From Akkermansia sp. (GTDB taxonomy: Bacteria > Verrucomicrobiota > Verrucomicrobiia > Verrucomicrobiales > Akkermansiaceae): a DNA stretch of 33,255 nucleotides. Below the pieces are notes generated by a model. That model searched no databases. It had not been told where the DNA came from and was given only the letters and a program-made list of their open reading frames with translations. A program made the position numbers and the translations under genes. The DNA lies in assembly GCA_024405415.1 (NCBI GenBank), contig JAKSOV010000013.1:1-33255 (forward strand), written 5' to 3'. Positions 4,023 to 16,112 of this stretch are shown in pieces (within the stretch, counting starts at the first letter, position 1; each line of letters starts with the position of its first letter).

Positions 4023-6893
4023 TCAGGGATTCACCAGACCGTCATCGGGGAAGAGGCCCGGAGCGGAGGTACCCGCGGAGGAAGCCTCGGAGCCGCGGCC
4101 CGTGTCGCGCTTGCGCATGGGCTTGCCGAAGGGATCGATCACATCCGCCGTCACGAAAATCATGAGGTTCTTGCGGACATGGGATTCAGCCTCGGAGCGG
4201 AACAGGCGGCCGACGAGGGGCAGGTCACCGAAGACAGGCACCTTATCCTCAACCTTCTGCACCTCATCCTCAATCAAACCACCGATGGCGATGGTGTGAC
4301 CATCGTACACGCAGGGGTTGGAGTTGATGTAGCGGCGGCTGAAGATGGGCATATCGATGCGGTTCTCCGTCAGCTCGACGTGCTCAATCTTGGAGGAGTT
4401 AGCCACAGCAGCCGTGATGGGCGAGCCGTAGTTCACGAAACCTTCGAAGTCAACAACGCGGATTTCGAAGCGCTTGAAGCGGACGATATCGCCGTCGGAG
4501 TCCTTGAGAGGCTCAATCTGGAAGCGCATCATGATACCGACTTCTTCCACAGCCCACTCGGAGGGGTTGGCGGGAGAGGCAACGGGCATGGAGCCGTAGC
4601 TGCCGTTGTTGTTGTTGTTATTGTTGTTGTTATTGTTGTGACCGCCGTTGGAGTTGATCTGGGGCTCATCGTAGGCGATGGGGTAGATGAAGCGGCGAAC
4701 CACCTCAATCTTAGCGCAACCCTGCTCATCGTTCTGGTCAGAGGCCAGGGGATCGGGGGCGGGAGCGTACTCCATCTGCTCGTCACCGCTGATCACCAAG
4801 CTCGGGGCAGACATCACATCCACGCCCTTCTTCTGGGAGAGGCCGCGCATGATCATCTGGAAGGAGCCGGAGTCGTAGATACCGGAGAGAGACAGGACGC
4901 CGGGAGCAGCACCGTAGGTGGCGGAAGCCGCAGCGGAACCGGAGGAAATCAGGTTGTTGATGGCGCTGGTGTTGATAGCGCCGCTGCCGGTGCGGAGACC
5001 GCCGGTCATGAGACCGTTGGAGATGGCATCGCGAGCGTTGAAGCCCTCCTTGACGGGCCAGGAACCGCTATTGGTGTGGTTGTTGGCATAGCCCGTACCG
5101 CCGGAGGTCACGAAGTCGGAGGACGTGCGGGGCGTGGTGGCGTTCTGACCGTTCACACCGCCGAGGAAGGCCGTACCGGCATCGTTGATGGAGAAAGGAT
5201 TCACCACCCAGTCGAAGCTGAGCTCCTCGTCGTTCTGCTGAGAAACCTCAACGAACTTGGCGCTCACCTTCACCATCTTGGGCATATCCTGACGGAACTT
5301 GTTGATGGCTTCCTCCACGGTGTCGAGTTCGTCATCGGTGTTGTACACGGTGAGGACACCCGTGGTGCGGGAGTACTGAGCCGTGGAGCCCTGCGGGAAG
5401 GAAACACCCATGTCAATCAGGGAAGCCTTGGCGTCAATCTTCTTAGCCTTGTGCTTGGAAGAGGACACGAAATCGGAATCCTCATCTTCCTCCTCCTCGG
5501 CGCCGTCGTTGCCGGTGAAGAAGGAGGGACGCACCGTCCACTGACGGCGGGTCATGCGCTGAGAAGCGGCACCCTTCTGGTAGACGACCACGGCGTTGTC
5601 TTCCACGCGCATCTCGCAACCCGTGAGGCTGCACACGCGGCGAAGGAGATCAGCAGCGGAAACGTCCTGAAGCTTGAGAGAGGGGATAATGGCGGGAGCG
5701 ATGGTCTGCTGCACTGCCACGGGAGCCGCGGCGGGAGCGGAGCTCTCCTCCTCATCATCATCGTCCTCATCGTCGTCATCGGAAGCAGCGGGGGCGGGAG
5801 CAGCAGCGGGAGCGGCAGCCACCTGAGCCTTCTCGTAGATGAAGTTCATCTGCATGCCGGCCTTGCGGGCCTCGGCGCGGAGGAAGTCCAGAGCGTCCTC
5901 CATGGGCGTCTCCTCGAAGTTGACAGCGGAGATGCGGAGGCTGTTGAGGTTCTCGGAGTTGCGGAGCACGCCCTCGGAAACCTGAGCGGTCTCGGTGCCG
6001 CCGAGCTCGATATCGGGAAGGTCCTGAGGAAGCTGTTCCTCCCAGAGGGCGTCCACCTCGGCCAGAGCCTTGGCGCGATAGGAGTCATGAGCGGCCGTGT
6101 AGTAGTTGGAGCGGCGCTTGCTGATGCTCTCCTGACCGCGACGGGCAGCGGTGTTGTAGGGGTCGATGGCAATCACACGATTGAACTCGGCATAAGCCGC
6201 ATCGTAGTTGCCCAGATCAAGGTAACCATAGGCCAGCGTGAGCAGGCGGTTCACCTCTTCCACATTCTTGACATGCTCAGGCGTCAGAGCAGGGTTGTGA
6301 CGAATCGGGTCGCGCATCAGGGAGAGCTCCTTGCGGGCGCGGGCATTGTTCGGGTCACGGGAAAGGACGTCCAGCAGAAGCTGTTCGGCATCGTCGTAGC
6401 GGCCGATGCGGGAGTACTCGATAGCCACGGCGATGGAGGCATCGCCGATGCTCTTGACGATGAACTCCTGCATCTTCTGCGTAGCGGGAGCCTTGGGGAT
6501 AGCCGTCCAAGCGGCCTGATACTTGTCGAGAGCGTCCTTGTACTTCTTCTCCGAGTACGCCGTGCGGCCTTCCTGCAGGAGCTGCAGAGCCTCGGCGCTC
6601 TTAGCCTGACGGCGAGCCGTCTCGCGGGCGTTGATGCTGTCCTGCTGTTCAGAGCCGGCATACACGGCGGTCGGGCCGACCTGGCTGGTGCCGGCGGCGG
6701 TCGACGTGCTCAGATAACCTGCCGTAGCGGCGGGCGTTTGGGCCGTAGCGGGCGTCTGTGTCGGAGCGCCGGCGGGACGAGCGGCCGATGTGCTCAGATA
6801 GCCTGCCGTAGCAGCCGATGCAAAGGGGCAACCGGCGGCAAGCGCAATGAGAATCATCGCTCGCTTAGAGTGGGTGAGAGGTGCGTGGTTCAT
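4023..6893 (-). CDS. Secretin, PilQ/Amuc_1098-like outer-membrane channel
   Basis: A 956-aa secretin expected to form the multimeric outer-membrane pore of a type IV pilus-like machine. Residues 1-27 are a signal peptide. Two TAGYLSTS repeats follow (about 29-36 and 57-64). TPR-like helices span about 95-260 in place of the AMIN domains of classical PilQ, and an STN-like region is at about 317-440. The secretin core extends to about residue 930 with the signature VPVFGDLPLVGRLF near its end. An acidic block (DDDDEDDDDEEE at about 372-383), a second acid-rich stretch and eleven Asn in a row (4605-4637) lie in linkers. It is the last gene of the five-gene operon and is followed by a strong terminator. 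There is no Shine-Dalgarno; 95 nt separate it from the preceding gene, so an internal promoter is possible. Confidence 0.93.
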   Translation of the reverse strand: MNHAPLTHSKRAMILIALAAGCPFASAATAGYLSTSAARPAGAPTQTPATAQTPAATAGYLSTSTAAGTSQVGPTAVYAGSEQQDSINARETARRQAKSAEALQLLQEGRTAYSEKKYKDALDKYQAAWTAIPKAPATQKMQEFIVKSIGDASIAVAIEYSRIGRYDDAEQLLLDVLSRDPNNARARKELSLMRDPIRHNPALTPEHVKNVEEVNRLLTLAYGYLDLGNYDAAYAEFNRVIAIDPYNTAARRGQESISKRRSNYYTAAHDSYRAKALAEVDALWEEQLPQDLPDIELGGTETAQVSEGVLRNSENLNSLRISAVNFEETPMEDALDFLRAEARKAGMQMNFIYEKAQVAAAPAAAPAPAASDDDDEDDDDEEESSAPAAAPVAVQQTIAPAIIPSLKLQDVSAADLLRRVCSLTGCEMRVEDNAVVVYQKGAASQRMTRRQWTVRPSFFTGNDGAEEEEDEDSDFVSSSKHKAKKIDAKASLIDMGVSFPQGSTAQYSRTTGVLTVYNTDDELDTVEEAINKFRQDMPKMVKVSAKFVEVSQQNDEELSFDWVVNPFSINDAGTAFLGGVNGQNATTPRTSSDFVTSGGTGYANNHTNSGSWPVKEGFNARDAISNGLMTGGLRTGSGAINTSAINNLISSGSAAASATYGAAPGVLSLSGIYDSGSFQMIMRGLSQKKGVDVMSAPSLVISGDEQMEYAPAPDPLASDQNDEQGCAKIEVVRRFIYPIAYDEPQINSNGGHNNNNNNNNNNNGSYGSMPVASPANPSEWAVEEVGIMMRFQIEPLKDSDGDIVRFKRFEIRVVDFEGFVNYGSPITAAVANSSKIEHVELTENRIDMPIFSRRYINSNPCVYDGHTIAIGGLIEDEVQKVEDKVPVFGDLPLVGRLFRSEAESHVRKNLMIFVTADVIDPFGKPMRKRDTGRGSEASSAGTSAPGLFPDDGLVNP
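4605..4637 (-). repeat. Asn-codon microsatellite inside the secretin gene
   Basis: Eleven consecutive Asn codons (AAC with two AAT interruptions) in the loop between NGGH and GSYGS. A trinucleotide tract of this kind can change length without breaking the frame. Confidence 0.9.
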
Positions 6894-6988
6894 GGTAATG
6901 TCTAATTTATGGCAGATTTTTTAGTGATTGTAAAGTCTACAATTGATTTTTTTGAGCGCTCTGCGCGCTTTTTTTGAAGATTTTTTCA

Positions 6989-8128
6989 TTATTTGCCCTC
7001 GGGGGCTGTTTTTTGACCTGCTTTGGGCACGTTGACAGGGCTTTCCATGCCCTCGATGCTGATGTTGACGCTGCCGGATTTATCCATCGTCTCGAGCTTG
7101 GCGTTCATGGGCTTGCCGTCGCTGTAACCGCCGGGGATGACGAAGTCGCCCTTCTCCTGGCACTTGACGGTTTTACCCGCAGCGCTGCCTGCGGTGACGC
7201 GCAGCGTAATCGTCTTATCCTTAATCTGGCGGCCGCGCACGTCATCAGGCTTAGCAGCCTTGGCGATACGGGGCGTACCGGGCACAACGATAAACTCCTT
7301 GTTGTCGGGATTGGCCGTCTCGTTGTCGCGGACAACGATGACGTTCATGTCCGTCTTGTTGCCGCCCAGGTCCGTGCGGACAACCTTATCAAACTTCACA
7401 AAGGTGAAGCGGTTGTCACCATCCTTGAGGCCGAAGCTCTGGCCGGGCTTCACCGTCTTCTTGAAGGAGGGCTGGATATCGCCCTCGGTCTTGAAGATGC
7501 GGATCTCAGCCTCGGTAGGAGCGGCGTCATACTGCAAAGCGCCGGAAACGGAGACGACGGCGGATGCCTCGCTCACTCCCACAACTTCCAGCTTGGGGGC
7601 CTCGTTCACGCGCACAAGGGCGGGATAGCTTGCCACGTCGGCGGGGGAGGTATGGGCGAGGAACTCCTCGCGGTTGGAGAAACCGTCCTTGTCGCTGTCC
7701 ATGTCCAGACCGTCTGCGCGGCCGAGAGCGTCGGCAATGCCGTTGGTGATGAACCAGCTGTTGGGCACATCGGCATGAACCGCAGGGGCGGCGGGGTCAT
7801 AGATGTCGATAATCGTGTTCTTCTGCTGCGAGTCGGAGCTGACCTGCCACAGCTCGGTAGAGAAGAAGAGGGGCGCCATGCGGGGCTTGCCGTTGATGAC
7901 GGCGCCCTCGGGCGCGGCGTCGCTCACGGTGCGGTCGCTCTTGAGGTTGGCCTTCACCTGCTCTGCCTGAGCGGTGAGAGAGCCGTCCCCCTTGCCGCCG
8001 CTCACGACGGTGTCGGGGACAACAACCTTGGAAGACATCATGGTGTACGCGCCGAGACCGGCGGCGGCCAGTCCGAGGACGGCACCGATAATCAGCGCAT
8101 TCTTACCGGAATTGGATTGATCTGCCAT
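6989..8128 (-). CDS. Amuc_1099-like pilus operon protein
   Basis: A 379-aa protein with one N-terminal membrane helix (about residues 10-30) and a large periplasmic domain. It lies between the Amuc_1100-like and secretin genes, the place of Amuc_1099 in Akkermansia and of PilP in the classical pilMNOPQ order. It may therefore link the inner-membrane proteins to the secretin, but no PilP motif is recognised. Residues 141-155 read LDMDSDKDGFSNREE, a DxDxDG calcium-binding loop of thrombospondin type 3 or EF-hand kind. The rest is beta-rich and unrecognised. The gap to the upstream Amuc_1100-like gene is 24 nt, so the two are almost certainly cotranscribed. No Shine-Dalgarno precedes the ATG. 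Confidence 0.82.
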   Translation of the reverse strand: MADQSNSGKNALIIGAVLGLAAAGLGAYTMMSSKVVVPDTVVSGGKGDGSLTAQAEQVKANLKSDRTVSDAAPEGAVINGKPRMAPLFFSTELWQVSSDSQQKNTIIDIYDPAAPAVHADVPNSWFITNGIADALGRADGLDMDSDKDGFSNREEFLAHTSPADVASYPALVRVNEAPKLEVVGVSEASAVVSVSGALQYDAAPTEAEIRIFKTEGDIQPSFKKTVKPGQSFGLKDGDNRFTFVKFDKVVRTDLGGNKTDMNVIVVRDNETANPDNKEFIVVPGTPRIAKAAKPDDVRGRQIKDKTITLRVTAGSAAGKTVKCQEKGDFVIPGGYSDGKPMNAKLETMDKSGSVNISIEGMESPVNVPKAGQKTAPEGK

Positions 8129-8152
8129 AACGGAGATAGGGAGGGTAAAATC

Positions 8153-9064
8153 TTACTTGTTCTTGGCGGGATTGAAGTAGAGCACCTGCAGAGTGAGGTG
8201 GACACGAGCGGTTTCGTTGTCAGCACCGGTCTTGCGGACGGCGATGACGCGGGCGGGGGTGCCCTCCGGCGCAGCAGCGGCCTCGCCCACGTTCTCCCCT
8301 TCCGGGGCAGCCGCGGGAGCGGTGTAGGCGTCGATGCCGGGCAGCGAGTCATTGCCCTTCACCGCCATGCCGGTAATGGTCAGCAGGAAGTCCTTGTCGG
8401 CCACGATGCCGTTAATCACCTGGGGAAGCACGCCGCGCTTGGCCTCGAAGGCCACCTCGAAGCGCAGGGGGAAGTAGGGCTCGGCCTTGCGGCTGCCCTT
8501 AGCGGCTTCTGCGGCGGCCTCGGGAAGAGGTGCGCAGTAAATCTTATCCAGCACCGGAGCGCCGGAGTTGAGCACGATTTCCGCCACACGCTCCACAGCC
8601 TTCATCTGGAAGCTGCGGAAAGGCACATCATCCTCCACGGGAGCAGCATTCTTGAAGGCAGCCAGGCCCAAATCCGCAGCGGGGGAGGACACCACGGCGC
8701 CCTTCTCCTTGGCCAGACCGTCAATCTTGGCGATGGCGCTGCGGAGGTTGTTCTGGAAGTCCTGTGCGGAGAGCTTCTTGCCGTCGCCGTAGCAGAAGGA
8801 GGCAAAATGCGCAAGCTCGGCCTGCAGGTCCTTGTTCACCTGCGTCACCTTGTCGTACGCGGCTTTGATTTCCTTGCGATTGGCAGCGGTGGGGGGCACC
8901 TCGGCGTTCTCGTAATCCTGGAAACGCTCGGAGATAGCCTTCAGCTCCTTCTGCGTGTTTTCAAACTGCTGCGTGCGGTCGTAGCCGTAGTACATGATGC
9001 CGCCGAACGCAATGGCGAACAGGGCGCTCAGGGCAATCACGCGCTTATTTTCACTGATATTCAT
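8153..9064 (-). CDS. Amuc_1100-like protein (PilO-like)
   Basis: A 303-aa protein with a short cytoplasmic start, one membrane helix (about residues 9-27), a coiled coil (about 30-85) and a C-terminal ferredoxin-like domain. This is the architecture of PilO/GspM-type proteins and of A. muciniphila Amuc_1100 (about 317 aa), the protein reported to signal through TLR2 and improve metabolic health in mice. The stretch FEVAFEAKRGVLPQVINGI, then DFLLTITGM, and the C-terminal LQVLYFNP resemble the same parts of Amuc_1100 as I remember it. An Ala/Pro/Glu-rich insertion lies at about residues 246-270. Position between the PilM-PilN fusion and the Amuc_1099-like gene supports the call. Sequence divergence looks substantial, so host signalling by this homologue is not established. 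Confidence 0.85.
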   Translation of the reverse strand: MNISENKRVIALSALFAIAFGGIMYYGYDRTQQFENTQKELKAISERFQDYENAEVPPTAANRKEIKAAYDKVTQVNKDLQAELAHFASFCYGDGKKLSAQDFQNNLRSAIAKIDGLAKEKGAVVSSPAADLGLAAFKNAAPVEDDVPFRSFQMKAVERVAEIVLNSGAPVLDKIYCAPLPEAAAEAAKGSRKAEPYFPLRFEVAFEAKRGVLPQVINGIVADKDFLLTITGMAVKGNDSLPGIDAYTAPAAAPEGENVGEAAAAPEGTPARVIAVRKTGADNETARVHLTLQVLYFNPAKNK

Positions 9065-9097
9065 GGGACTAAATGTTTCTTCGTTCGTAACCGGGGA

Positions 9098-10975
9098 TTA
9101 CTTCTTGGCGCCGTCGGCAAGCTCGGGGATAGCGATGGGCGTCTTGAGCGGCATCACCATCATGAACTTCTCGACATAATCGGGCATCTTGCCCTTGGAG
9201 GCCTTGGAGTCAATGAACTGGAAGTAGTGGTTGAGGTCCTTCTGCACCTTGGCGTTCTGGTAGGAGAAGAGGGAATCGGCACTGCGCTCGTCGAAGTTGC
9301 GATCCACGAGGTCGTAGATAGCCTGACGCTGCGCCGTGCTGCGCTCGTCGCCGGGGGTCTTGATGGTGAAGCCGCTCACATAGATAGCCGTCACCATGGG
9401 GGCCTTGCCGCGCTTCTTGGTATCCACCTCATCAGGGGCCTGATTGAGGGCGGAATCATTGCCGGCGTTGCGGCTGCGGTTCATGTCGATGAGCTTGGTG
9501 CCCTTCACGTCCGCCGCCTCGGTCAGCGAGTTCGTCTCCACATCGTAGTTGATGAGCGGGGAGAACTCATTGAACCAGAACTTCACGGAAGCGCCGCGGG
9601 AGGAAAGCTGGCGAAGGATATCCGCATAGGCAAAGCGCAAGTTGTAAATCTCGGCCACCTTGTCGATTTCCTTCATCGTGCCCTGATACTTGCCCTGCAC
9701 ATTGGCAATCTGCTCGCTCACGCGGGAGACCTCCTCGTCCACGGGCTGAGCCTTGAGGAGAGCGGCCTCGGCCTTCGTCGCGGCATCATTGGCGGTGTAG
9801 GCGAAGAAGCCCGCGCCCGCCAGCGCCAGCAAGCCGGCCGCCACCACCTTGGGCAGCATAGCCTTCTCGGCGCGGTCCTTACCCACGCTCGTGGGCACGA
9901 GGTCGATATCAAACTCACCGATGCCGGCACCCGTCACCGCAGCGCCCGCAATGGCGCCGAGGCAGATGCCGTCCTGCTCCAGCGCATCGGCATCCACATG
10001 TTTGCCGATGGAGAAGCACTGCAGCGGGTTGAAGTATTCCACCGTGATGTTGAGGGCGCTCTGGAGGAACTCCAGAGCATAGGGCAGGCGCGCACCGCCG
10101 CCGCAGATGTAGGCCTTGACGGGGGCGTTGCCGTGGTACTGAGCACGGTAGTGGTTGATCGTGCGCTGCACCTCAGAGGAGAGGCGGCCCATGGCCGTGC
10201 GGATGACCGTCGCCAGCGCAGCCTCCTGCTCGCCCATGGAATCGGTGTGACCGTTACCCAGGGAAACGGCACCGCTGGCGACCTTGAACTGCTCGGCATC
10301 GCGGAAGCTCATGCCGAACTCGCGGGCCACCTGGTTGGTGATGAAGGAGCCGGCCGCCGTGACGGAACGCGTAAAGAAGCGGCCCGAGTCGGAGAAGATG
10401 ATATCGGTGGTCTTGGCGCCGATATCGAGAATCATCACAGGCTCATTCTCCTCGGGGTAAGAAGCACGGAACGCATTGTAGAGGGAGGTGATGGAGCAAT
10501 CCACGCTGCGGGTGCGCAGACCGTTGCTCTCCACCTGCTCATTGAGGCTGTCGAGCACATCCTTCTTGATGGCCACGAGCAGCACCTCGCGCTCCACCTC
10601 GCTGCTGCCGGGCAGCTCCTGGTAGGAGTACTGGATGTCCTCCAGCGGGAAGGGAATGTGCTGCTGGGCCTCCATGCCCACCTGCTCCGCGATATCATCC
10701 ATATCGAGGGCGGGGAGCTTGATGAAGCGCATGAACACCTGCTGTCCGGAAACGACGTTGCGAACCTCGCTGCCGCGCACCTTGAGCTCTGCCACCAGCT
10801 CGCCGATGGCGTTGCTCACATAGTCCATGCGCATGCCTTCCTCGACGGGGTCGAGAACGATGTCGCGACGGGCATAGCGCGAAAGCGCGAAGCCGCGTCC
10901 GGCCGGGGTAAAGACGCCCATCGTCACGCTCTGCGCGCCGATTTCAAGGGCTACCGTAGTCTTATAATCAGCCAT
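9098..10975 (-). CDS. PilM-PilN fusion, Amuc_1101-like
   Basis: A 625-aa protein. Residues 1-345 are an actin-like ATPase fold of the PilM/FtsA family: N-terminal ALEIGAQSV (phosphate 1), LDIGAKTTDIIF at 183-194 (phosphate 2) and ICGGGARLPYALEFL at 290-304 (adenosine motif). It is followed without a break by FDIDLVP at 355-361, which looks like the cytoplasmic NLLP peptide of PilN that binds PilM, then one membrane helix (about 374-393), a coiled coil (about 395-445) and a periplasmic PilN-like domain to the end. It thus joins two normally separate pilus assembly proteins in one chain. It lies 61 nt after the Amuc_1102-like gene and 33 nt before the Amuc_1100-like gene, without a Shine-Dalgarno. 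Confidence 0.88.
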   Translation of the reverse strand: MADYKTTVALEIGAQSVTMGVFTPAGRGFALSRYARRDIVLDPVEEGMRMDYVSNAIGELVAELKVRGSEVRNVVSGQQVFMRFIKLPALDMDDIAEQVGMEAQQHIPFPLEDIQYSYQELPGSSEVEREVLLVAIKKDVLDSLNEQVESNGLRTRSVDCSITSLYNAFRASYPEENEPVMILDIGAKTTDIIFSDSGRFFTRSVTAAGSFITNQVAREFGMSFRDAEQFKVASGAVSLGNGHTDSMGEQEAALATVIRTAMGRLSSEVQRTINHYRAQYHGNAPVKAYICGGGARLPYALEFLQSALNITVEYFNPLQCFSIGKHVDADALEQDGICLGAIAGAAVTGAGIGEFDIDLVPTSVGKDRAEKAMLPKVVAAGLLALAGAGFFAYTANDAATKAEAALLKAQPVDEEVSRVSEQIANVQGKYQGTMKEIDKVAEIYNLRFAYADILRQLSSRGASVKFWFNEFSPLINYDVETNSLTEAADVKGTKLIDMNRSRNAGNDSALNQAPDEVDTKKRGKAPMVTAIYVSGFTIKTPGDERSTAQRQAIYDLVDRNFDERSADSLFSYQNAKVQKDLNHYFQFIDSKASKGKMPDYVEKFMMVMPLKTPIAIPELADGAKK

Positions 10976-11022
10976 AAATTGATTGAATCAGTTAGTAAGA
11001 GAAAAGAGGAGAATGGCGAGGC

Positions 11023-11038
11023 GAGCCGCGCGCGGCTC
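11023..11038. repeat. 16-bp perfect palindrome at a gene end
   Basis: GAGCCGCGCGCGGCTC overlaps the stop codon of the Amuc_1102-like gene in the gap before the PilM-PilN gene. It has no loop or T-tract, so it is not a convincing terminator; it may slow transcription or stabilise the upstream mRNA end. Confidence 0.6.
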
Positions 11039-11879
11039 ACTTCTTCTTGGACTTCTTCCCGGTGCCCGTCGTCACGCTCGTCGTCGTGTCGCTGTCGCTC
11101 ACCGTGCTGTCCGTCGTCGTGTCGGAATCCGCATCAGAGGAAGAATAGGAGGCGCTGCCGCTGCCCTCAGCGCTGCCGTAGAGCGGCTTGGTGGGCGGGA
11201 ACACAGGCGCATAGAAGGGAGCGAAGGGGGTCTCGGAGATAGCGGAAAGCTCCGCGCCCTGCTTATTCTTAGAGGTCTTCTTCCACCAAGCGCCCGTGAG
11301 CTTCTGCTTGTACTTGGCATCCACCACGGCGTAAGGCTCCGTATCGCCCGCAATGCAGGGAGAATCGTGGAAGGAGGCCTCGATAGCCACGGCAATCAGC
11401 TTATCGCCCAGCTCCACCTTCGAGTTGCTGTTGATAATCTTGCTGGCGTTGGCGGGAGAGATAAAGATGCCGACATTCATGTGCCCTTCGGAGAGCTTGC
11501 CGCCGCTCTTGCCGTTGACGGGGATGTCCACATAGGTGATTTCCTTGTCGAGCATGATGGGCTCATCGCCCTTCTCGCCGCCGAACACCGCGTAGACGTG
11601 CACTTTCAGCTCATCCACATAGTTGGGGGAGCGGTCGCCCTTGCACTTGGCCTCCACCTTCAGCGGGATGGTGACATACTGCCATGTGGTGGATTTGTCC
11701 GTGCGGGACTGCTTAGCGTCCTTGCCGCCGAAAATCGTCATCGGCGAGACGGACTCCACGCGCAAATCGCCGCCGTTGCTGACATCCAGCGTTACGCGCG
11801 CATTGTCAGCGTTGAGGGCGGAAGCGACAGGCAGGCCGCAGAAAGCTGCCACGGCAAGGGGAAAGAGCAGGTTCTTCAT
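11037..11879 (-). CDS. Amuc_1102-like secreted protein
   Basis: A 280-aa exported protein, first gene of the pilus-like operon. The start at MKNLLFPL is chosen because a clean signal peptide follows (cleavage after about residue 21, VASA). The longer open frame upstream runs through hairpin-rich intergenic sequence. The body is beta-rich, consistent with an Ig-like fold as I recall being reported for Amuc_1102. The C-terminal tail from about residue 240 is Ser/Thr/Asp-rich (TTTDSTVSDSDTTTS) and ends in KKSKKK, suggesting a flexible extracellular segment. Operon position is the main evidence. No Shine-Dalgarno is present; a TATAAG lies 27 nt upstream, but without a good -35. Confidence 0.75.
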   Translation of the reverse strand: MKNLLFPLAVAAFCGLPVASALNADNARVTLDVSNGGDLRVESVSPMTIFGGKDAKQSRTDKSTTWQYVTIPLKVEAKCKGDRSPNYVDELKVHVYAVFGGEKGDEPIMLDKEITYVDIPVNGKSGGKLSEGHMNVGIFISPANASKIINSNSKVELGDKLIAVAIEASFHDSPCIAGDTEPYAVVDAKYKQKLTGAWWKKTSKNKQGAELSAISETPFAPFYAPVFPPTKPLYGSAEGSGSASYSSSDADSDTTTDSTVSDSDTTTSVTTGTGKKSKKK

Positions 11880-12361: not shown

Positions 12362-13258
12362 TCAGGCTTGCCAGCCCTTGCCCGGCTTCCAACGGCGCAG
12401 GGCTTGGGGAGTCATCACAGGTTCCAACCATGAGAGGATGTACGCCAATACCTCCTCAAACTCCTTGGGCGGGAGCACAAGCGGCGGTTTGCGATGAAAG
12501 GTGTCAGCCTTCATCTTGCGGATATAGGTTGCCCACTCTGTCCGCATGGCATCGATGTAGACATCCTGTTTCAACTCGGCAACAGCGGCGGGGTCGGTGC
12601 CTCGGCGTTCAAAGGTGCGCCCGATGGCTTCACGAAGCGGGGCATACTCAAAGCTCTGCTCGTGTGAGAGAAACCAGAGGTCGTAAAAATCCTTCATGCG
12701 CGAGTTCATGCGGTTGAGCTTCACGATAGCTTCCCATTTTTCGGCAATCAGCGACTCCTTGGAATAGCACAGCACACGCGCGGCTGGGAGCTCCGGCAGG
12801 GTGCAGGGGTAATCCAGCTCCTGAGGCTCCGGGAAAATCTCATCGCTGAACCCGATATCCACTTTCATCTCCAGCGCTTCCCCTGCGACCTGCGCATCGA
12901 ACATCACCCGCATGCCGACATAGAGTGCATCTTTCGTAATCTCCTGCAAGCGAAACGCAGAACCGAAGCTGATACCGTCCTGCACGCCCGGTTTAGTGCG
13001 CACAATCTCGGAAAAAGCTTTTTTGATACTCTCCTCGCTGTTGCTGATGCGGCCGAGAAGGTCAATATCCATAGTGGTGCGCGCTTGGGAGGAACCCATA
13101 CCCGCCAAGAGCATCCCGCCTTTCAGAAAGAGTCGGCCCGCATAGGGGGAGAGGGAAAGGCGGTACAGAAAACGCTCCATAGCGTATTGCTGCATCAGGC
13201 GGCGGGGTGCCACCTGCAATTCGCGGGCGCGGCGGTTGAGTCGTTCTTTCAGCTTCAT
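12362..13258 (-). CDS. abiEii: AbiEii-type nucleotidyltransferase toxin
   Basis: A 298-aa protein of the AbiEii/AbiGii family, the toxin of type IV toxin-antitoxin and phage abortive-infection systems. The nucleotidyltransferase motif is visible as FLKGGMLL (45-52) with GSSQARTTMDIDL (55-67), where Asp64 and Asp66 are the metal ligands. Later family motifs are ESLIAEKWEAIV (168-179) and MKDFYDLWFL (188-197). Family members are reported to transfer nucleotides (GTP-binding, or onto tRNA in the related MenT toxins); the target here is unknown. The start codon overlaps the antitoxin stop by 4 nt (ATGA), implying translational coupling, and fixes the start despite a much longer open frame upstream. 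All key residues are intact. Confidence 0.9.
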   Translation of the reverse strand: MKLKERLNRRARELQVAPRRLMQQYAMERFLYRLSLSPYAGRLFLKGGMLLAGMGSSQARTTMDIDLLGRISNSEESIKKAFSEIVRTKPGVQDGISFGSAFRLQEITKDALYVGMRVMFDAQVAGEALEMKVDIGFSDEIFPEPQELDYPCTLPELPAARVLCYSKESLIAEKWEAIVKLNRMNSRMKDFYDLWFLSHEQSFEYAPLREAIGRTFERRGTDPAAVAELKQDVYIDAMRTEWATYIRKMKADTFHRKPPLVLPPKEFEEVLAYILSWLEPVMTPQALRRWKPGKGWQA

Positions 13259-13803
13259 GAGAGAAGGGATTTCAGGTAAGGGGTGAGCACCGAGAGCACG
13301 CGCAGTTGTTCCGCTTGGCGGCACAGTTCGGGGATATTCAGTTTGGCATGGGAAAGGCGTAACGCTTCCAGAAAGACATCCATGCCGATTTTGTTGCGGT
13401 ATTTGCAGCAGTCGGCAAGGGTGCGTTCCAAGCTCGTCACCCGAAAAGCACCGTATTCCCCTTGGTGCAGCTCGTAGCCGTCGGCCAAGAGGTCGGGCTT
13501 GGTCGCCCAATAGAGGACAGGCGCACACAGCACCCGGGGCCCGCGCGAGCCGCGCGGGATTGCAACGGAGAGATAATCGGGGATTTGCGTTGTCACACGG
13601 TGAAAGCTCAACGCCGAAATGAGGTTCATCGTTGCCGTCGGGTGCACGCGGTTAATCCACTGCATCACTCGCTCCTCAGTCGGGATGACATCGATGGGAA
13701 CATACTGCCCGGGAAGCACGCGCAGCAACTCTCCCGATGCGCTGAGCCGTTGCTTCGTGCGCATCGAAACCGCAGGTGGTGTCATGGGCGTTTTCATCTG
13801 CAT
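13255..13803 (-). CDS. abiEi: AbiEi-type antitoxin/autorepressor
   Basis: A 182-aa protein upstream of and overlapping the AbiEii gene. AbiEi antitoxins have an N-terminal winged helix that binds the system's own promoter and a C-terminal domain that counteracts the toxin. The middle part (NLISALSFHRVTTQIPDYLS, then RVTSLERTLADCCKYRNKIG) carries the pattern of this family's C-terminal domain. The N-terminus is short and fits a reduced winged helix. The start ATG at 13803 (or the ATG two codons later) is chosen because a promoter ends 10 nt before it; the frame's earlier ATG lies inside that promoter region. The pair is likely negatively autoregulated. Confidence 0.82.
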   Translation of the reverse strand: MQMKTPMTPPAVSMRTKQRLSASGELLRVLPGQYVPIDVIPTEERVMQWINRVHPTATMNLISALSFHRVTTQIPDYLSVAIPRGSRGPRVLCAPVLYWATKPDLLADGYELHQGEYGAFRVTSLERTLADCCKYRNKIGMDVFLEALRLSHAKLNIPELCRQAEQLRVLSVLTPYLKSLLS

Positions 13804-13813
13804 CTCTGACGCA

Positions 13814-13842
13814 AATTGTGCACAAAAGCCGTCTTTTGTCAA
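13814..13842 (-). promoter_or_regulatory. abiE promoter, near-leaderless
   Basis: Minus-strand consensus TTGACA (13837-13842), 17-bp spacer, ACAATT (13814-13819), then 10 nt to the ATG at 13803. The inverted AAAAGACGGCTTTT in the spacer could be an operator for AbiEi. Confidence 0.65.
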
Positions 13843-13944
13843 CAATAAACGCCAAAAAGAAGGATGTACAAATCGCGAAGAACGGCGCTACTTCCGTCGG
13901 CGGGGTGTTTCTCTTTTGTTCCGTTGGCAGCGGAACGCCGCGAC

Positions 13945-14570: not shown

Positions 14571-15221
14571 ATGAAAAAGACACTTTTTGCAATGGCGGCT
14601 CTCGCGCTTTGCGGCACGGCGTTCGCATGGGAAGGCTCTACAAGCCAACTCAACGCGACGGAACTGGCAAATTTTAACGACTCTGTATATAATGGCGAGT
14701 CCATCACGCTCACTGTGAACACCAATGCGGATTTTGGGAATTTTGACGTTCGCTACTCATTTGGTACCGTGACTTTGAATTTTGTTAGCTCTAATGCTAT
14801 TACCGCATCAACCGCATTGAGAGTGGGGGGGGCCGAGGGCTACACTATCACTGGTGATTCTGCGGCACTAAACTATTGGGGCGAGAAGCTCACTTCTTCC
14901 ACCGACTTAACCTATATTCCGCTCGCTACCACTGCTGCCACTGTAAATGTACCAGCTGTCTCAGCCGTGCCGTCCATTGTCTTTGTCGGCACAATCCCCA
15001 CCATGACCTATACGGAATATATGCGGGCACCCTCGCAAGAAGAACTTGAAGCCATCGGTCACAATGAGTTCGCCCTCGTGGGCTTTACCGCTAACTCCGC
15101 CGACCATCAAAAAGGTCTCTATCTTGTCGGTAGGGGCGGTGCCGCCACCCCCGAACCCGCCACGGCGACCCTTTCCCTGCTGGCTCTCGCGGGTCTCGCT
15201 TCCCGCCGCAAGCGCAAGTAA
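14571..15221 (+). CDS. PEP-CTERM-type secreted protein, copy 1
   Basis: A 216-aa small exported protein. It has a signal peptide (MKKTLFAMAALALCGTAFA), a beta-rich, low-complexity Ser/Thr/Asn-rich body, and a C-terminal sorting signal made of TPEPATATLSLLALAGL followed by ASRRKRK. PEP-CTERM proteins are exported, then processed and sorted to the cell surface or matrix by an exosortase. The function of the body is unknown. The next gene is a paralogue with the same ends and same promoter region. No Shine-Dalgarno precedes the ATG. Confidence 0.9.
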   Translation: MKKTLFAMAALALCGTAFAWEGSTSQLNATELANFNDSVYNGESITLTVNTNADFGNFDVRYSFGTVTLNFVSSNAITASTALRVGGAEGYTITGDSAALNYWGEKLTSSTDLTYIPLATTAATVNVPAVSAVPSIVFVGTIPTMTYTEYMRAPSQEELEAIGHNEFALVGFTANSADHQKGLYLVGRGGAATPEPATATLSLLALAGLASRRKRK

Positions 15222-15443: not shown

Positions 15444-16112
15444 ATGAAGAAAACACTTTTTGCGGTCGCGGCTCTCGCCCTTTGCGGCACGGCGGTTGCG
15501 GGCGAGTACAACGCGAGCGAATACCAAAATGTAGATTTTACCAGTGCCATATACGGGAATGGGTCAAATGTTGTGTTCGTTGTGGACGCACCCGCTACCT
15601 TAAAAACCTTTCGGGCTTATGAAGCGGGGTCTATGACTTTGAGCTTTGTTGGTGAGAACACCATCTTAGTGAACGGTAGCGGTATCGGTGGGATTAGTGG
15701 GTTGGACTTGTATACCAGAGGGCCTCTGGCCGTCATAGGCGACAGCTCTGCCAAAGAATACTGGTATACCGCACTCACTTCGGAGGACATCAAGAGTGTC
15801 ACGCTCGCAAGTACCACCAGTTCGTTCGGTGCTCCTTCCGCTAAGACCTCATTTGAAGGGTTGGCGGAAAGCGGTAGCATCACGCTCGGCAACGCCACGG
15901 TGGACTATATGGGTTACCACGAGGTTACCACCGCCGCCGAGGCTGAAGCTCTCATCACGGGCGACAACCAAATCGCGCTCGTGGCTATTAAAGGCACGAA
16001 AGAACTCGCTCTTGTCGGCAAGATTTCCGGTGCCACCACCCCCGAACCCGCCACGGCGACCCTCTCCCTGCTGGCTCTCGCGGGTCTGGCTTCCCGCCGC
16101 CGCCGCAAGTAA
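15444..16112 (+). CDS. PEP-CTERM-type secreted protein, copy 2
   Basis: A 222-aa paralogue of the preceding gene. Signal peptide (MKKTLFAVAALALCGTAVA) and C-terminal TPEPATATLSLLALAGL with an ASRRRRK end are almost the same as in copy 1, while the 160-residue body between them has diverged strongly, keeping short patterns (DSSAKEYWYTALTS against DSAALNYWGEKLTS). The signal and anchor are thus conserved and the exposed part varies. A role as a variable surface or matrix component is inferred; no enzyme motif is seen. Confidence 0.9.
   Translation: MKKTLFAVAALALCGTAVAGEYNASEYQNVDFTSAIYGNGSNVVFVVDAPATLKTFRAYEAGSMTLSFVGENTILVNGSGIGGISGLDLYTRGPLAVIGDSSAKEYWYTALTSEDIKSVTLASTTSSFGAPSAKTSFEGLAESGSITLGNATVDYMGYHEVTTAAEAEALITGDNQIALVAIKGTKELALVGKISGATTPEPATATLSLLALAGLASRRRRK

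Follow-up and report, generated by a model that had tools for sequence, protein, structure and literature searches.

Amuc_1100 of Akkermansia muciniphila has been reported at the cell surface and as an activator of TLR2 (PMC5332112). Does a five-gene cluster on an Akkermansia contig of 33,255 nucleotides, analysed here over its whole length (the window), encode a relative of this protein, and to what kind of machine does the cluster belong? A preliminary description had read the cluster as an Amuc_1098-1102-like operon with conserved gene order and a diverged Amuc_1100 homologue, and had proposed the homologue as a means of finding the surfaces needed for TLR2 signalling.

A divergent copy of the MUL2 block

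The five ORFs were all intact and lay on the minus strand of the window between 4023 and 11879, in the order 1102-1101-1100-1099-1098 (Table 1). The intergenic gaps were 61 bp (1102/1101), 33 bp (1101/1100), 24 bp (1100/1099), and 95 bp (1099/1098). The top NCBIfam model of each ORF was that of its own Amuc family. The scores passed the cut-offs for the Amuc_1098 family (NF042912; 756.1 bits against an equivalog cut-off of 750) and the Amuc_1099 family (NF042425; 136.6 against 50), fell just below that for the Amuc_1101 family (NF045709, Amuc_1101_fam; 611.1 against 650), and were clearly below those for the Amuc_1100 family (NF038287; 98.8 against an equivalog cut-off of 180) and the Amuc_1102 family (NF042424, Amuc_1102_rel; 42.2 against 55). 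The Amuc_1100 model was the sole meaningful match of its ORF, and scores below 180 bits for this family were also found in other genomes searched from the same lineage (lineage B, see below). Judged by these scores, the 1100, 1101, and 1102 proteins are homologues below the equivalog level, with a clear family relation.

Table 1. Genes of the five-gene block in the window, in their order along the minus strand.
Gene product	Length (aa)	Position	Strand	Features
Amuc_1102-like (MUL2A)	280	11037..11879	-	N-terminal signal sequence; C-terminal Ser/Thr/Asp-rich tail, last residues GKKSKKK
Amuc_1101-like PilM-PilN fusion (MUL2B)	625	9098..10975	-	NCBIfam Amuc_1101_fam, Pfam PilM_2
Amuc_1100-like PilO-fold protein	303	8153..9064	-	N-terminal helix, coiled coil, ferredoxin-like core, disordered linker ~240-284
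Amuc_1099-like	379	6989..8128	-	N-terminal membrane helix, beta-rich periplasmic part, putative EF-hand/TSP3-type calcium loop DSDKDGFSNREE at residues 144-155
Amuc_1098-like secretin (PilQ-like)	956	4023..6893	-	TPR N-terminus; acidic loops 372-383 and 466-472; poly-Asn 753-763

Gene order and near-constant spacing were kept in nearly all of the ~120 loci compared across the Akkermansiaceae, a few of which had fused, missing, or truncated ORFs. The 1102 gene directly preceded the 1101 gene across loci, and the 1100 gene of the window lay between those for 1101 and 1099, as expected for the Amuc_1100 family. The window thus shows the synteny of the mucin-utilisation locus MUL2, 1102-1101-1100-1099 followed by the secretin, of a block that has already been described as conserved through the Akkermansiaceae (PMC13174399). 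Consistent with the preliminary description, the synteny and the match of each gene to its cognate family model identify the cluster as this known MUL2, pilus-like block, of which the present copy is a divergent, expected relative rather than a surprise.

Host lineage and vertical inheritance

The genome that contains the window is 1.98 Mb in size and 95% complete, and carries M60-like mucinase and fucosidase genes. The Amuc_1100 family was detected in 137 of 145 Akkermansiaceae genomes. Within the genus of the window, its scores split into two groups. The A. muciniphila-like genomes mostly had E values of about 1e-86 to 1e-91, with a single one at 5e-63; the window belonged to the other group, with E values of 1e-21 to 1e-33. 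The 1101 protein of the window had named relatives in Akkermansia metagenome-assembled genomes of water buffalo, yak, goat, cattle, sheep, deer, horse, and rabbit ('Lapin'), and more distant ones in Ca. A. intestinigallinarum and A. glycaniphila; the nearest relative, at 82%, carried no host name. These relatives fit 'Lineage B' as defined by its listed members (PMC10540074), a match made by species names rather than by a joint tree. The window comes from a ruminant-type member of lineage B, related to Akkermansia of the ruminant hindgut.

The mean identities between lineages A and B were 44% (1098), 26% (1099), 22% (1100), 41% (1101), and 21% (1102). In the trees of all five proteins and of the control proteins EttA and LysA, both lineage B and the genus Akkermansia were monophyletic, and lineage A was monophyletic in every tree except that of 1102. 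The five gene trees agreed with the controls and gave no sign of horizontal transfer, which was rejected; the block is vertically inherited across the Akkermansiaceae.

The 1100 protein evolved fast everywhere, with a tree distance between lineages A and B of 3.1, compared to 0.5 and 0.7 for the controls. Its ratio of lineage-B to lineage-A branch lengths was 1.6, inside the range of the controls (1.4 for EttA and 2.5 for LysA), so that no special selection is indicated and a particular acceleration in lineage B was rejected. The ratios of 1098 (3.0) and 1102 (2.9) were somewhat above a baseline that consists of these two controls and spreads widely, and are suggestive only.

Components of a probable type IV pilus-like machine

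Residues 10-344 of the 1101 protein matched Pfam PilM_2 (E = 3.5e-31), and its profile matched PilM of the type IVa pilus model 3jc8 (E = 5.8e-54). Profile positions 355-473 matched PilN of the same model weakly (E = 0.002). The 1098 protein matched Pfam Secretin (E = 2.9e-20) and TPR. PilM, PilN, PilO, and secretin counterparts are found in one cluster, the PilN match being the weak one. For the 1102 protein, the PDB search gave a weak match to Amuc_1102 (7dsz, E = 0.17), ranked under chance-like L25 matches.

The PilO counterpart is the 1100 protein. Searched as a single sequence against the PDB, the 303-aa protein retrieved only the Amuc_1100 crystals (6kny, 6lad, and 6laf; E = 7e-12), which a profile of 57 homologues matched at E = 3.5e-79. 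Its AlphaFold model (mean pLDDT 88.5) superposed on the Amuc_1100 crystal 6lad with Z = 22.6 and 2.0 Å over 166 residues, and the next fold match was Pseudomonas PilO (2rjz; Z = 9.5, 94 residues). The protein is thus predicted to have the fold of the Amuc_1100 crystals, with about a fifth of its sequence in common with the probiotic protein. Both the homology and the divergence noticed at the outset are confirmed by the PDB matches, the NCBIfam score, and the identity of ~22%, and Amuc_1100 ranked first for the ORF at 8153-9064 by sequence as well as by predicted structure, with PilO next by structure. Neither outcome that the preliminary description had named as refuting it, a predicted fold unlike Amuc_1100/PilO or best hits in another family, was observed.

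The preliminary description had also seen an Ala/Pro/Glu-rich insertion near residues 246-270 of the 1100 protein, and this part did not stand. In the AlphaFold model, the Ala/Pro/Glu-rich stretch (~238-283) links two strands of the core and is modelled with low confidence; the aligned part of Amuc_1100 is just as rich in Ala and Pro. The linker is 46 aa long in the window protein, and its median length was 48 aa in the ungulate group, 45 in the rabbit group, 52 in A. muciniphila-type loci, and 76 in the aquatic genera (groups assigned by hand from hosts and identity). The lengths of 46, 52, and 76 aa reject an insertion; the stretch is probably a disordered linker common to the family and variable in length, here shorter than in the A. 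muciniphila-type and aquatic proteins.

The motor genes of a type IVa machine, namely extension and retraction ATPases, platform protein, pilins, and prepilin peptidase, were found on other contigs of the same genome. On contig C90, two adjacent PilB-type ATPases occur together with a PilC-type platform and a pilin, and their neighbours are dprA- and nadC-like genes named by eye. Contig C37 carries two further PilT-sized ATPases; the PilB and PilT assignments were made from size, pairing, and score only. The prepilin peptidase is on contig C70, and N-methyl pilins or pilin leaders are on contig C40 and several others. The motor-gene families are likewise present in lineage A.

We consider it likely that this vertically inherited operon, which corresponds to MUL2 and its secretin, encodes those parts of a type IV pilus-like machine that span the envelope. 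The five genes would be co-transcribed. In the assembled complex, the 1101 fusion, with its cytoplasmic PilM domain and its PilN part in the membrane and periplasm, would pair with the PilO-fold 1100, and an inner-membrane ring of 1101/1100 together with 1099, in the place of PilP/GspC, would align with the outer-membrane TPR-secretin 1098. The motor components encoded at the other loci could then extend and retract a filament that may hold or import host glycans, possibly by binding mucin. The 1102 protein might be exported as a pilin-like or adhesive component.

The same parts could instead make up an exporter resembling type II secretion systems, or an importer dedicated to glycans, in which a short pseudopilus pushes or pulls cargo through the secretin. 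Such a device would suit the resemblance of the 1098 protein to GspD (NCBIfam, E = 8e-29), the short pilin beside the C90 motor genes, which is GspG-like by eye, and the link between the MUL genes of A. muciniphila and mucin uptake (PMC13174399). A second secretin gene lies on contig C29 (28397-28633, minus strand), and other Akkermansia searched likewise have a second copy. The two secretins share the single platform gene of the genome, so that the motor may serve either of them, which also fits an exporter or importer. However, a PilM-type cytoplasmic protein and extra PilT-sized ATPases indicate a retractable type IVa pilus, and the nearest non-Amuc fold of the 1100 protein is PilO. We therefore regard an exporter or importer as unlikely and retain the type IV pilus-like machine.

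The Amuc_1100-like protein and TLR2

The idea that the diverged homologue could reveal the surfaces needed for TLR2 signalling is weak at this degree of divergence. Since lineages A and B have ~22% identity and ~20 positions of the 1100 protein are kept in at least 80% of the 57 homologues, no particular surface could be deduced if signalling were gained or lost. Homologues from lineage A members, at about 75% identity, are intermediate. The titles and abstract openings returned by a literature search mentioned no mapped TLR2 site on Amuc_1100. A homologue that is itself a surface protein signalling to host TLR2, its divergence reflecting adaptation to ruminant hosts, would agree with the reported surface location and TLR2 activation of Amuc_1100 (PMC5332112), but is very improbable in view of a fold, an N-terminal helix, and gene neighbours that are those of periplasmic PilO, and of a lineage-B rate excess within the controls that shows no host-driven acceleration. 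The pilus-like machine sets Amuc_1100 in an assembly complex conserved far beyond human Akkermansia, and this placement bears on how a periplasmic PilO-type protein, if it has a role in host signalling, could act as an immune ligand.

A candidate calcium loop in the Amuc_1099-like protein

Among 51 homologues of the 1099 protein, 13 positions were invariant, and seven of them fell within residues 144-162 (DSDKDGFSNREEFLAHTSP; hypergeometric p = 3e-7 for a stretch picked after inspection). D144, D146, D148, G149, and E155 fit positions 1, 3, 5, 6, and 12 of an EF-hand-type loop. Pfam TSP3_bac matched 42 of the 51 homologues at E values up to 1 (best 2.8e-8), and its match to the window's own protein was not significant (E = 0.89). 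These residue patterns suggest that the loop may bind calcium. It is a concrete and cheap experimental lead and the best one of this analysis.

The AlphaFold model of the 1099 protein was confident (pLDDT 86.5) and had no match above Z = 4.4 among PDB folds, and no solved structure was found for the Amuc_1099 family. PilP and GspC were absent from both the sequence and the fold match lists, an absence that does not exclude a relation. Without detectable similarity to PilP/GspC, the PilP-like role of the 1099 protein is assigned by position only.

Charged and disordered surfaces in lineage B

The acidic loops of the secretin contained 9-18 Asp/Glu per 20 residues in lineage-B loci, whereas the loci compared from lineage A, from aquatic genera, and from A. 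glycaniphila had 6-7. The 1102 proteins differed in the part that follows an ETPF anchor, with median lengths of 79 residues in the ungulate group, 74 in the rabbit group, 44 in A. muciniphila-type loci, and 20 in aquatic loci, under the same hand-made grouping. A Lys/Arg cluster ended the 1102 protein in 33 of 37 ungulate-group loci and in none of the 12 rabbit-group loci. A pairing of charges between the secretin's acidic loops and the basic tail of 1102 was rejected, as the two showed no covariation across 46 loci (Spearman rho = -0.01, p = 0.96).

A more ambitious interpretation is that lineage-B Akkermansia of herbivores remodelled the charged and disordered surfaces of MUL2, with acidic secretin loops and a Ser/Thr-rich 1102 tail, basic-tipped in most of the ungulate group, for a different mucin or glycan environment, and that the machine is calcium-dependent throughout the family via the near-invariant EF-hand-like loop of 1099. 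We hold this combined interpretation to be doubtful.

As a separate observation, the poly-Asn tract of the secretin is a run of 11 Asn. Many lineage-B secretins have runs of at least five Asn at a similar place, and some aquatic genera have Gly runs in place of Asn runs.

Neighbouring genes

On its 3' side, the operon of the window is followed by a MATE gene, which replaces the CoaE- or Rho-like ORF seen in lineage A. Among the lineage-B loci inspected, the downstream neighbour varied by genome (MATE, GalE-like, or ankyrin-like, the latter two named by eye), while CoaE- or Rho-like ORFs lay downstream in lineage A and aquatic loci. Further downstream, three genes away from the operon, the minus strand carries at 56-1618 a gene resembling those for sialic acid-specific acetylesterases (Pfam SASA, E = 4e-21), typical mucin-related enzymes.

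Just upstream of the operon, the region 12362-13845 (minus strand) contains an AbiEii-type toxin gene (Pfam AbiEii, E = 5.8e-44). An ORF at 13255-13845 (minus strand) overlaps the possible starts of this gene and sits where an AbiEi antitoxin would; it had no Pfam match. Two similar small PEP-CTERM proteins, encoded on the plus strand at 14571-15221 and 15444-16112, appear to be a tandem duplication.

Comparison with known systems

Compared to Amuc_1098-1102/MUL2 of A. muciniphila, the block of the window is alike in gene order, strand, spacing, the family of all five proteins, and the fold of 1100, and differs in its acidic secretin loops and longer Ser/Thr-rich 1102 tail. With the type IVa PilM-PilN-PilO-PilP complex and PilQ, it shares the canonical order of a PilM, a PilN-like, and a PilO-fold part and a secretin. 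Unlike in that complex, PilM and PilN are fused, the secretin bears TPRs, 1102 is an extra first gene, and the place of PilP is held by the unrelated-looking 1099 family with its putative calcium-type loop. The MUL2-like loci of aquatic Akkermansiaceae (PMC13174399) show the same syntenic block as the window in Haloferula, Roseibacillus, Luteolibacter, and others, but have a 1102 protein without the Ser/Thr tail and a longer 1100 linker.
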